Under the pieces are notes generated by a model. It did no database searches, was not told the DNA's origin, and saw only the letters and a program-made list of their open reading frames with translations. Of a DNA stretch of 64,000 nt, positions 3,670-16,096 are shown piece by piece; the stretch's first letter is position 1, and every line of letters starts with the position of its first letter. Origin of the DNA: Procambarus clarkii (taxonomy: Eukaryota > Arthropoda > Malacostraca > Decapoda > Cambaridae); contig NC_091217.1 in the NCBI RefSeq assembly GCF_040958095.1, forward strand, positions 12,084,715 to 12,148,714. Reading direction: 5' to 3'. A program made the position numbers and the translations under genes.

Positions 3670-3675
3670 TAGTAG

Positions 3676-4110
3676 TAGGGAAGGCGCCACACAGGGGATT
3701 TTTTTTTTCTGGGAGAAAAATCCCCTGTGCGCCCCAAGGGTTTCAGGTAAATTTAGAATATCCCCTGTGCGCCCCAAGGGTTTCAGGTAAATTTAGAAAT
3801 TCGTGTTTGTGAGCCAGGGTTTTTCAGGCGAATTTGGGCAGTCACAGATTTTAGAAGTATGGATTTCTTATGAGAAAAATAATTTCCGAGACTTAGAAGT
3901 TTGTTAAAGCCTTATGGGAGAAATTCAAATAACGTGTGTAGCACTTTAGGGCTTCCAGGAGAACTCTGGGAAAAAAAGTGCCTGTGCGCCCCAAGGGTTT
4001 CAGGTAAATTTAGAATATCCCCTGTGCGCCCCAAGGGTTTCAGGTCAAAAATCCCCTGTGCGCCCCAAGGGTTTCAGGTCAAATATCCCCTGTGCGCCCC
4101 AAGGGTTTTC
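3676..4110 (+). repeat. Terminal tandem units and duplicated block in the left arm
   Basis: A unit containing CCCTGTGCGCCCCAAGGGTT occurs at about 3720, 3760, 3985, 4018, 4053 and 4086. A longer block (the AATTTCCGAGACTTAGAAG segment through GGCTTCCAGGAGAACTCT) is present at 3877-3970 and again at 4205-4293. The right arm has only two short units and one block copy, which accounts for its shorter outer end. Confidence 0.85.
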
Positions 4111-4639
4111 AGGTGAATTTGGGGAGTCACAGATTTAGAATTAGGGAATTCTTATAATGAAAAATAATGTCATACGAGTTTGCTAAAGTTCTTATAAGAA
4201 AAATAATTTCCGAGACTTAGAAGTTTGTTAAGGCCTTATGGGAGAAATTCAAATAACATGTGTAGCACTTTAGGGCTTCCAGGAGAACTCTACGGACATA
4301 TTTTACATGTTTTCAACTTACAAAATCGTCTATGTAAGCCTTAGTTATTCATATAAATTTAGAAAATCACCTGTGTAAGTCATTGTTTTCAGGGTTTCGT
4401 ACATCACACCCCCCTCCCTCCCCCCCGTACCTCGCAATCTGTCGCCTCACCTGTGTTTACTTTACGCCCGGTCAGCCAGACCTCTTATCTTATGTTATCT
4501 TCTCATAATATCTGGACCGTCCCTCCTCTCTCTCTCTCCTTTCATTCAGTTCAACTATTTTCCAACATCGTATGTTTGCTCCTTTTCATTAAGCAAGTCA
4601 GTATGTTTGCTCCTTTTCATTAAGCAAGTCAGTTTTACA

Positions 4640-11666: not shown

Positions 11667-13122
11667 ATGGATCCTTTGTGTGCCAGGAAGTTTTACAGTA
11701 TAGAAAGCCTTAAATGTGCAGGAGTTAGACTACAAACATTTGTGGATTGGCCCATTAAGTGGTTAAACCCTATTGACTTAGTTGAAGATGGGTTCTATTA
11801 CCTTCGCAATAGTGATTACTGTTTGTGTGCATTTTGTTATTGTATAGTAGGTGCATGGATTGTTGGTGATACCCCCAGAAGACGTCATAAGATCATTAAT
11901 CAAGACTGTGCCTTTATTAGAGGCGAGAGGAGTGACAATGTTTCTTTAGAGGTGTCTGAGATAGCTTTCAAATATGGACTGGAATTTGTTTCCCATAAAA
12001 TAGAACTGGGAAATAAGAAAATAAGTGGTAGTAGTAAGTATATATTCTTATGATGTATTCTTATACCAGTCTTATATACTCTGTACAAAACTTGATTGCT
12101 TAAATAGATACTTCTTATTCTTCTAAGAATAATTTACGTAACTACGTTATATTTTTTTAGGTGGTGCTCCTCCTAAGGAAGATCTGGGATTGATCAAATT
12201 TAGGAAATCGCTGAATCCAGGATTGGTAACTTATAAATCTCGCCTAGAGACATTTGATATGACATGGCCTGGAAGCGTCAAGCAAACTTCTCATGAGCTG
12301 GCAGAAGCTGGTTTTTTTTACTGTGGTATGAAGTGTTTTAACTATTTTAAACTTAATAGAGTTATAAGTAAAGAAATAATGAATAATAGTTAAAAGATAG
12401 TAACGAGATAATGCTGGATTGTTTTATGGTTTTCAGGTATAAGTGACCACGTCTGCTGCTATCACTGCGCCTGTGGAATACGAAATTGGAGACCAGAAGA
12501 TGATCCTTGGACGTTACATGCGAGATGTAGTCCAGAATGTGCTTACATTATTCTTGCAAGGGGCAAGGAATTTGTTAAGAATGCTAGATTGACAATACCA
12601 TTACCTATAAAACCTATAGACAATGATTTAATTAATATCTTAATGGAGGGTATGGATAAGTTCAAACATCTGATTCATAAAAAATTAATACCTGTGGAGA
12701 GTATAAGATATGCTTTAAGTGAGTACCTTAAGGAATCCAGAGATTTGTTGCCTTTTATTATACAAAGTAGATGTCTAGAAATCGTGTTGAGGTATATGCA
12801 AGAGGGAACAGATATTTATTTACGGGTACGGGACTTAATTTATGAAGCAGTTGATGATAAAAAGGAACAAGAAGCTACGCTTGAAGATCTGGGATTGAAA
12901 ACTTTACCGGAGACTTGTACTAACACTGATGAAAACAAGGACTGTATAGAACAATCTTGGGAAGAAGATATTTTATGCAGAGTTTGTATGGATAAAAATA
13001 TAAATATTGTAATACTACCATGTAAACATATGGTGACATGCAGTGGTTGTCTTTTAGCTCTGAAATGCTGTCCAATTTGTAGAGGAAATATTTTATATAT
13101 AATAAATCCAATTGCTTCTTGA
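11667..13122 (+). CDS. Inhibitor of apoptosis protein, BIR-BIR-RING, three exons
   Basis: The exons 11667-12033, 12161-12325 and 12437-13122 join in frame to 405 residues. Introns are short (127 and 111 bp) with GTAAGT and GTATGA donors and TTTTTTAG and TTTTCAG acceptors. BIR1 (about 21-86) has C54, C57, H74 and C81, the CX2C-X16-H-X6-C zinc set. BIR2 (about 147-215) has C185, C188, H205 and C212 with the same spacing, and is split by the second intron just after the YCG. The C-terminal RING (about 358-395) shows C-X2-C-X11-C-X-H-X3-C-X2-C-X6-C-X2-C. Family members bind caspases or pro-apoptotic IAP antagonists through BIRs and act as E3 ubiquitin ligases through the RING. Such genes occur both in animals and in insect DNA viruses. 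Introns argue for a nuclear, host-derived gene. The stop codon lies inside the TIR. Confidence 0.9.
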
Positions 13123-16096
13123 ACACTTATGATTTTCTTGAACACTTGTATAACTACTAAGAACACTTGTATATGATTTTCTTGAACACTTGTATAACTA
13201 CTAAGAATACTTGTATATAATTGCTTCTTGAACACTTATGATTTCTTGAACACTTGTATAACTACTAAGAACACTTATGATTTCTTGAATACCTGTATAA
13301 CTACTAAGAACACTTGTATGCGTTAAATGTTGTAATAAACTTAATGCCTCTTCTAAATAAGATTTCTTTATCCTTAATAGAATAATTTGCTTATTACATT
13401 GGAGGACTGAAACAAGTACTTAATTATGAAACCGAATAATGACATGATGTAGTAAGTTTAACGGAAATATTGAATACAATGACTTGAAAAGTTTTCCTTT
13501 GACTAATGAAGGTGTATGTTTAATAAAACTGAGTTACGAAAACAATGCCTTAAGATGCTACTGTAAGTAATGACTTAGTGCACGGGCAAGTATCTTTAAT
13601 TGTACGAAGATGTCTTAGAATGATTTATATTGACATTATTTGAAAATGGATAACTACCAAATGCTCAGTAGTAACTTACTGTGAATTAGTAATGTTACTG
13701 TTGTTGTTGTTGTTGTCGTTGTTAATAACGATGATCTACTTACTTACTTACTAAAATGACAGAACCAACTAGTTTTGAGAATTAGTACAGAGATGATTAG
13801 AGAATAAGTAGTGGACTGTAATGAACGGGTAAGAACATGTAGCGGAGGGATGGAGGAAAATTGTAAGAAAGGGTTGAAAGTTGGGATGTGTAAAGGATTG
13901 AGAGATTGTAAGGGATGGTATCAAGATGTGCGGAAAACATGCTACAACATGTAAAGTAGACAGTGTAGAGAGTTGGGCGGTGAACAAGCTAGGACTTGTA
14001 ATGGATGGAAGGAGTCGGGTATATTTACATATGACTCATGTTTAAATAAGATATGGGACACAGTAATACACGCTACAACATGTAAAGTAGACAGCGTAGT
14101 AAGATGCGAGGCGAACATGCTGAGACATGCTGAGACATGTAAAAGGAATGAGAGAGAGATTGTAAGGGTTGGTACCAAGATGAGCGGAAAACATGCTATA
14201 ACATGTAGAGTAGAAATAGCGTAGTGAGTTGGGCGGTGAACAAGCTAGGACTTGTATTGGATGGAAAGAGTCGGGGTATATTTACATATGACTCATGTTT
14301 AAATAAGATAGAGGAGACGGTAATAGTTGTTTAAGTCTTGTATAAAATTGGAAAGAAGTAGAGAATATGTAAGACTAAGTACAGATCTGAACTTACAGAG
14401 AATATGCTATGAACGGGGAAAGAACGCAAATTAACAGCTACATTTTAAATTTACGAGACTTGGATGAGATGGAGGAAGGTGGGAGGGGGTGAAAGATAAT
14501 TAAACAGGTTGGGGTTATGTGTATACTCGGATAAGAGATACGCTGGAGACGGACTTGATCGAATATATTTATGTCTGATGATCTAAGGCTAATGTCCAGA
14601 TTAATTTTACTACGTTAGAAAATACGGTGATCTTAAATCTCAGGGTGATTTAGTTGGAAAATAAAGAACTTGTACAAATGAACTAAGCTGGGGCACAAGA
14701 GTTGAAACTTAATAACTGAACTGGTTTTTTATTTACTATGTCTGAAAATGTAGTTGGGTGATTTGGACTGAGAGTAATGATTTTACAAAAGTGAGCTTGG
14801 ACAGAGGACAAGAGCTAGAGTTTTATAATTGTTTACTTCATATTTACTATGTCTGAAATACAGAGGGTAAAAATTTCAGGGAAATTGGACTGATACTAAC
14901 GAAGATATGAAAGAGAACTAAGGCGGGGACGAGAGCTGGAGCTCAGTAACTGACTTGATCTTATTTACTAACTTTGAAGTATGTCTGCTTTTAATTTTAG
15001 GGAAATTGATGGGTTATTTACAAAGATACGAAAGAGAATTAAGGCGGGGACGAGAGCTGGAGCTCGATAACTATTTGATTTTATTTACGGCGTCTGAAAT
15101 ACAGAGGGTAACAATTTAAGGGAAATTGGACTGTTACTAATGATTTTGTACAAATGAACTAAGCTGGGGACAAGAGCTAGAGTTTGATAATTGTTTGCAT
15201 TTACTAAACTATGTCTGAAATACAGAGGGTAGAAATTTCAGGGAAATTGGACTGATACTAACGAAGATACGAGAGAGAGCTAAGGTGGAGGACAAGAGCT
15301 GGAGCTTGGTAACTAATTACTGTATTGAACTACGTTTGAAATATGATTATTTTTAAATTTTAGAGGGATTGGAATGATAGTATTCTTTATACGACAGGGG
15401 ACTAAGGTGGGGAACGTGAGCTAGAACTTGCTTACTAACATGATTTATTTGTGTAAAACTGACTTGCTTAATGAAAAGGAGCAAACATACTGACTTGCTT
15501 AATGAAAAGGAGCAAACATACGATGTTGGAAAATAGTTGAACTGAATGAAAGGAGAGAGAGAGAGGAGGGACGGTCCAGATATTATGAGAAGATAACATA
15601 AGATAAGAGGTCTGGCTGACCGGGCGTAAAGTAAACACAGGTGAGGCGACAGATTGCGAGGTACGGGGGGGAGGGAGGGGGGTGTGATGTACGAAACCCT
15701 GAAAACAATGACTTACACAGGTGATTTTCTAAATTTATATGAATAACTAAGGCTTACATAGACGATTTTGTAAGTTGAAAACATGTAAAATATGTCCGTA
15801 GAGTTCTCCTGGAAGCCCTAAAGTGCTACACATGTTATTTGAATTTCTCCCATAAGGCCTTAACAAACTTCTAAGTCTCGGAAATTATTTTTCTTATAAG
15901 AACTTTAGCAAACTCGTATGACATTATTTTTCATTATAAGAATTCCCTAATTCTAAATCTGTGACTCCCCAAATTCGCCTGAAAACCCTTGGGGCGCACA
16001 GGGGATATTCTAAATTTACCTGAAACCCTTGGGGCGCACAGGGGATTTTTCTCCCAGAAAAAAAAATTCGTCTGTGTGGCGCCAACCCTACTACTA
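13110..16096 (-). repeat. Right terminal inverted repeat arm
   Basis: This is the reverse complement of the left arm. Its inner limit is very sharp: identity stops between 13110 and 13109, inside the last codons of the IAP gene, so that gene's stop codon lies within the arm. One T/C difference from the left arm was seen, opposite 4114. The arm contains an AATAAA at 13334-13339. Confidence 0.92.
13334..13339 (+). terminator. Candidate poly(A) signal of the IAP gene in right arm
   Basis: AATAAA about 212 bases after the IAP stop codon, inside the TIR. It is the exact mirror of the signal at 6752-6757. Confidence 0.45.

Follow-up and report, generated by a model that had tools for sequence, protein, structure and literature searches.

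A probable non-autonomous Maverick with IAP and macrodomain cargo in the genome of the crayfish Procambarus clarkii

What moves a DNA element that consists of two long inverted arms and five genes, none of which is recognisable as a gene for movement? The question is raised by a 64-kb stretch of the 4.03-Gb Procambarus clarkii assembly (G000:C68:12084715-12148714, here called the window), in which positions 3671-16095 form an element of 12,425 bp with ATATAT flanking each side. Between the arms lie an IAP gene on the plus strand and, on the minus strand, genes for three macrodomain-type proteins (macro3, macro2 and macro1) and for a protein resembling the phrog_19090 family. We conclude, with a probability of roughly 0.8, that this is a non-autonomous, satellite-like Maverick (Polinton) mobilised in trans by Mavericks resident in the same genome. 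Its identity as a non-autonomous Maverick with an IAP-macrodomain cargo is well supported; its mobilisation in trans and the function of the cargo are what we infer.

Ends and copies of the element

Over 2,900 nt, the complementarity between positions 4082-6981 and 13110-16009 is 100%, which bears out a first-pass annotation of this DNA that had described near-identical arms of about 3 kb enclosing five genes. The left arm (3671-7066, plus strand, 5' tip AGTAGTAGGG) contains tandem units, and at its tip it exceeds the right arm (13110-16095, minus strand, 3' tip CCCTACTACT) by about 331 bp. The target-site duplications (TSDs) are ATATAT at 3665-3670 and 16096-16101; because the site lies inside a (TA)n array they are uninformative alone, and the 6-bp rule comes from eight other elements. 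Perfect arms can arise from an assembly artefact or a segmental inversion, and the 2,900 identical nucleotides would agree with such an origin. Against it stand the TSDs, at least 130 genomic matches of macro3 across many contigs and the occurrence of the phrog_19090-like gene in 99 matches. The first-pass annotation had named an artefact, a one-off inversion and the absence of any other locus with these ends as outcomes that would end its proposal; other loci carry the same ends and exclude all three, so that we assign an artefact practically no probability.

Genome searches gave many copies. For macro3, 150 matches were scored of 1,933 candidates: at least 130, some of them partial, share 79-100% identity (family A) and 120 of these have no internal stop, while a further 20 scored matches lie at 62-63% identity. 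The phrog_19090-like protein has 99 genomic matches at 94-100% identity, 93 of them without a stop, and a 729-bp arm query has at least 74 matches, many in inverted pairs 12-13 kb apart (best 40 of 3,481 candidates scored). Of ten fetched copies, seven have all four minus-strand genes open and without gaps, and three (on contigs C46, C73 and C8) have gaps or stops in at least one gene. Several copies with the same gene order, for which the first-pass annotation had suggested looking, are thus present.

Both tips were readable in eight of eleven cargo elements, the window element included, and in one Maverick; in the elements on C5, C73 and C8 a tip is unreadable at one or both sides. Copies outside (TA)n have exact ends, AGTAGTAGGG...CCCTACTACT, and a 6-bp TSD was found in all nine elements read at both ends, eight of which are informative: ATATAT (window), GACTGC, AATACC, TTTACA, CACAAT, AGTGTC, GACCTG, GCTGGG and GTCCTG (the Maverick). 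The 6-bp TSD and the end motif (AGT)2//(ACT)2 are those of vertebrate Mavericks, for which the available part of PMC8097293 gives terminal inverted repeats (TIRs) of 46-1,447 bp and lengths of 12,723-24,620 bp. The crayfish element is alike in end motif, TSD and inverted repeats and, at 12,425 bp, falls just under that length range, but it differs in its arms of about 3 kb, its IAP and macrodomain cargo and the absence of recognised core genes. A tip pattern, AGTAGTAGGGNNNNCNNNNCACAG, has 947 + 900 genomic matches (1,847 tips), against 0 + 0 in a backward control.

The first-pass annotation saw no recognisable transposition or replication gene, and indeed no such profile in Pfam matched any of the six window frames tested. 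Nor did the window element yield a recognisable Maverick core gene (PolB, integrase, ATPase or capsid). It is therefore not an autonomous Maverick and at most a non-autonomous derivative of one.

Sesarmid crabs have insertions of Nimavirus or Ginger2 type in (AT/TA)n, and the (TA)n site of the window would also fit an insertion of that kind. Endogenous nimaviruses, in the available text of PMC10871703, have crustacean hosts, insert in repeats and carry eukaryotic-like genes that include IAPs, some with introns, and the integrase-type enzymes of Ginger2/TDD are related to those of Mavericks (PMC2836005, available part). However, Ginger2 has TGTNR ends and a 4-bp TSD, or 5 bp in TDD-4/5, according to the same part of PMC2836005, whereas the crayfish element has AGTAGT ends and a 6-bp TSD. 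The sesarmid TIR begins GTTGTGCC, unlike the crayfish element, and the sesarmid nimaviruses are 265 and 285 kb long, with a Ginger2-like or tyrosine recombinase and other ends (PMC10871703, as far as its available text goes). In a tree, the element IAPs form a clade apart from three nimavirus IAPs. Since ends and TSD differ from those of Ginger2 and of the sesarmid type, we rejected a Ginger2 or nimavirus identity, which we regard as hardly conceivable.

Resident Mavericks as candidate helpers

A Maverick with the same ends lies at C3:2694324-2707659 (partner locus L053/L054), 13.3 kb between two tips and with the TSD GTCCTG. It encodes PolB (PF03175, 1.5e-17), a Pox_A32-type ATPase (1.1e-7) and an integrase with rve (8.3e-8) and chromo (6.2e-6) domains; no capsid gene was identified in it. 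The full-length PolB has no Pfam match, and its last 873 amino acids match PF03175; of the 95 genome matches of this profile, the one at C3:2697895 lies between the tips 13.3 kb apart. The larger relative with an integrase that the first-pass annotation had thought worth seeking is thus present, with identical tips. Its two proposals, a cargo transposon or a reduced virus-like element, merge into that of a Maverick with exchanged genes, to which many copies, precise ends, TSDs and a partner of autonomous type have been added.

An exact 24-nt tip, AGTAGTAGGGAGTACAGTCCACAG, occurs 46 + 37 times in the genome. Five integrase-bearing elements, 13.26-13.39 kb long, carry it at each end (on C3, C46, C55, C67 and C129), and it is also found on five macro3-bearing elements (two on C3, and one each on C46, C50 and C400; a single end is listed for that on C50 and for one of those on C3). 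In cargo element L055, the first 597 bp are 88% identical to the arm of the C3 Maverick. The Maverick integrase has at least 110 genomic matches (110 scored of 5,488 candidates), all 98-100% identical and 107 without a stop. These never come closer than 55 kb to the 130 macro3 matches, so that within these lists the two gene sets reside in separate elements.

An autonomous transposon of a new kind would be moved by a protein of its own, phrog_19090-like or macro-like, with Maverick-like ends that are convergent or borrowed. The number of macro3 matches, although no transposase was recognised in the element, fits this idea, as does the lack of a known function for phrog_19090. On the other hand, the exact 24-nt tips, the arm similarity and the 6-bp TSD are common to the integrase-bearing Mavericks of the same genome, macro3 has a predicted macrodomain fold, and the phrog_19090-like protein is unmatched in one family B copy (see below), of which the piece read would cover only part of the gene. 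We consider such a transposon quite improbable. In the non-autonomous Maverick that we prefer, the core genes of a Maverick (for polymerase, integrase, ATPase and capsid) would have given way to the IAP, the three macrodomain-type proteins and the phrog_19090-like protein, and inverted ends of a type recognised by Maverick proteins would have been kept.

Arms, length and insertion sites

The arms of an element resemble each other more than they resemble those of other elements. The best arm-arm stretch in eight of eight cargo elements is 98.95-99.97% identical over 2.5-3.4 kb, with tandem-unit differences between arms in the C28 element and at the left tip of the window element. Over the outer 600 bp, the two arms are 99.5-100% identical in seven elements, 63% in the window element, with its longer left tip, and 91% in the Maverick, against 60-96%, with many gaps, between different elements. 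Copies are about 95-100% identical to one another in the gene region; toward the tips it falls on both sides, to about 60-90% in the elements on C21, C28 and C46 and to about 94-98% in those on C65, C88 and C185 (that on C5 has no readable tips). On C1-C3, 30 of 37 pairs have exactly the same 24-nt tip on the left and on the right; in 10,000 shuffles the number of such pairs averaged 3.9 and never exceeded 14. The match within elements, together with the difference between them, indicates that arms are copied onto one another and that tips differ or are exchanged between elements. If the element is replicated in linear form by the helper polymerase, with a protein as primer, homogenised arms would be the product.

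The spacing of 61 tip pairs was measured: 37 pairs lie on C1-C3, and the remaining 24, all with one type of tip, lie on other contigs. Fifty are spaced 10.5-13.7 kb apart, median 12.4 kb; three are 18-25 kb apart and eight are shorter. The three that exceed the other 58, at 19-24 kb (C2:24628204-24652517, C2:16688914-16708619 and C3:37326007-37344795), may be larger relatives or nested insertions. Non-autonomous transposons usually shrink, yet the length here stays near the 13.3 kb of the helper, even in the 12.4-kb pair around L057 with its middle devoid of long frames (see below), and this may point to a packaging limit. It is conceivable, as a tentative extension that we hold less likely than not, that the element is to an animal Maverick what a genuine satellite virus is to its helper: helper particles would replicate and package it, its length would be held at helper genome size, and it would supply anti-death and ADP-ribose functions, giving a divided genome. 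Virophages and transpovirons are linear DNAs with inverted ends. The crayfish element would share with them the dependence on a larger DNA element (PMC3671162, available part), but its helper is an endogenous animal Maverick and no capsid gene was recognised in it. Mavericks themselves have been argued to be viruses in transposon form, with particles not observed, in the available text of PMC8097293.

The first-pass annotation expected precise ends in (TA)n. The precise ends stand, now with a 6-bp TSD; the (TA)n does not define the site, since copies elsewhere are inserted in varied sequence, mostly minisatellites, and (TA)n as a specific target was rejected. Among 21 distinct elements with a readable tip flank, 15 adjoin a tandem array (TRF score at least 200) on at least one side, one is next to a weak array, on a single side, and five lie beside no array. 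Arrays make up 28% of the window outside the element, and the enrichment at tips has a binomial p of 4e-5; as the background is one 64-kb window and the sample is non-random, a preference for tandem arrays is only suggestive. The chromodomain integrase of the helper would be the enzyme that inserts the element, mostly into such arrays.

Cargo genes and selection

The IAP gene (plus strand) has three exons, at 11667-12033 (BIR1), 12161-12325 (start of BIR2) and 12437-13122 (remaining BIR2 and RING), and a product of 405 aa that is 98% identical to the NCBI-annotated protein P0010. The latter has two BIR stretches (3.9e-33) and one RING (2.8e-12), the domains of an IAP, and represents a cluster of 46 member sequences under the name 'baculoviral IAP repeat-containing protein 8-like [Procambarus clarkii]'. 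Given this identity, crayfish genes annotated as IAPs may include mobile-element genes, which is a warning for such annotations. On the minus strand follow macro3 (10481-11101, 206 aa), macro2 (9443-10342, 299 aa), macro1 (8657-9283, 208 aa; open in eight of ten fetched copies) and the phrog_19090-like gene, with exon 1 at 8477-8492 and exon 2 at 7076-8328, separated by a 148-bp GTAAG...AG intron. The product of this gene has 422 aa, of which 415 are the same in NCBI protein P0001, and P0001 matches phrog_19090 (2.5e-10), a family of unknown function.

The BIR-BIR-RING and macro-like parts of the gene set proposed in the first pass hold. The label 'methyltransferase-like' for the fifth gene stays tentative. 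The window frame of this gene has no Pfam methyltransferase match, and its structure model is poor (pLDDT 43). None of the three macro-like proteins has a macro match in Pfam, and the predicted structure of macro3 is a macrodomain; macro1 and macro2 are macrodomain-like through similarity to macro3 (28% identity each). A PDB sequence search gave nothing for macro3 and no macrodomain for the macro family, and a viral_contigs search gave no confirmed relative of either the macro family or the Maverick integrase. Identity of the cargo macrodomain to TARG1 and DarG is 13% and 21%. In P0006, an NCBI gene model of P. clarkii named ionotropic receptor 93a-like, a C-terminal stretch is macro3-like (89% identity over 87% of macro3), so element sequence has been joined to a host gene by annotation or exonisation.

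A second family, B, comprises 79 macro3 matches at 89-100% identity and lies at 62-63% from family A. One copy (L056), read in its inner part, has IAP, macro3, macro2 and macro1 in the same order as family A, with protein identities of 54-55%, 62%, 56% and 43%, respectively. No last IAP exon turned up in it, and the phrog_19090-like protein had no match in this piece, which stops about 1.1 kb past macro1 and would include the gene incompletely. A reverse-transcriptase-like frame, recognised by eye, occupies L056:1-603, the expected place of the last IAP exon. On C3, family B has a single match, at 32.6 Mb, and none of the listed tips is close to it.

The pooled cargo genes are under purifying selection. 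Eight gap-free copies, with those on C46, C73 and C8 excluded, differ by 35 synonymous changes and by 34 nonsynonymous ones where 136 were expected, a ratio of 0.25 (p 2e-8, each change taken as independent). Per-gene ratios run from 0 (macro3, IAP exon 2) to 1.49 (IAP exon 1, 7 changes). This bears on the idea that the cargo genes are carried along neutrally and that efficient ends alone account for copy number. The middle 3.5 kb of a 12.4-kb tip pair of another tip type (L057, G000:C1:56319500-56323000) lacks any frame of 100 aa and matches neither the cargo proteins nor the other loci compared, so an IAP-macrodomain cargo is not needed to spread. The deficit of nonsynonymous changes and the gene order common to families A and B nevertheless make neutrality improbable.

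Retained cargo could also serve the host, as a defence package of virophage type that has become endogenous, is multiplied along with Mavericks or viruses and reduces the harm done by infection. Genes mostly open over many copies, the pooled selection, the four of five genes kept in the second family and a virophage precedent in a protist (PMC10945749, available part) are consistent with this. The element's own replication could equally impose the selection, however; we consider a service to the host unlikely, though less so than neutrality. Under the preferred reading of a non-autonomous Maverick, the cargo may keep the cell alive and/or handle ADP-ribose marks during replication, and would be retained for that; such an action on the host is predicted from fold and family.

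Several points weigh against that reading. One Maverick was read, with an arm of about 0.93 kb that is 92% identical from arm to arm; its best match to the window arm is 86% over 366 bp. The cargo arms, at about 3-3.4 kb, exceed the TIR range of vertebrate Mavericks in the available part of PMC8097293. On C1-C3, three of seven integrase matches lie between two listed tips and four do not, and of four family A macro3 matches two have both tips listed and two have one. Most of the 95 PolB matches are not linked to element tips, and at PolB loci L045-L048 no tips were found within 1.5-kb flanks. Finally, IAP exon 1 alone carries no purifying signal (1 synonymous, 6 nonsynonymous changes).

In the literature searched, with most subscription papers outside the search, neither the phrase nonautonomous (or non-autonomous) Polinton or Maverick nor a paper joining Maverick/Polinton with macrodomain and BIR domain terms was found. 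A cargo derivative with helper-identical tips and near helper length, in a genome with at least 107 stop-free helper integrase matches, offers a system in which the replication and packaging of Mavericks and satellite parasitism could be put to the test in an animal.

Elsewhere in the window, two adjoining long minus-strand frames at 24175-29855 (1,241 and 643 aa) look by eye like a non-LTR retrotransposon. Two plus-strand frames at 58249-62140 (676 and 522 aa), the first gag/protease-like, look by eye like an LTR retrotransposon. Big minisatellite arrays, with periods of 15 to about 105 bp and lengths up to 3.5 kb, lie at 18422-19533, 20451-23237, 33748-35375, 47547-49799 and 52938-56439.

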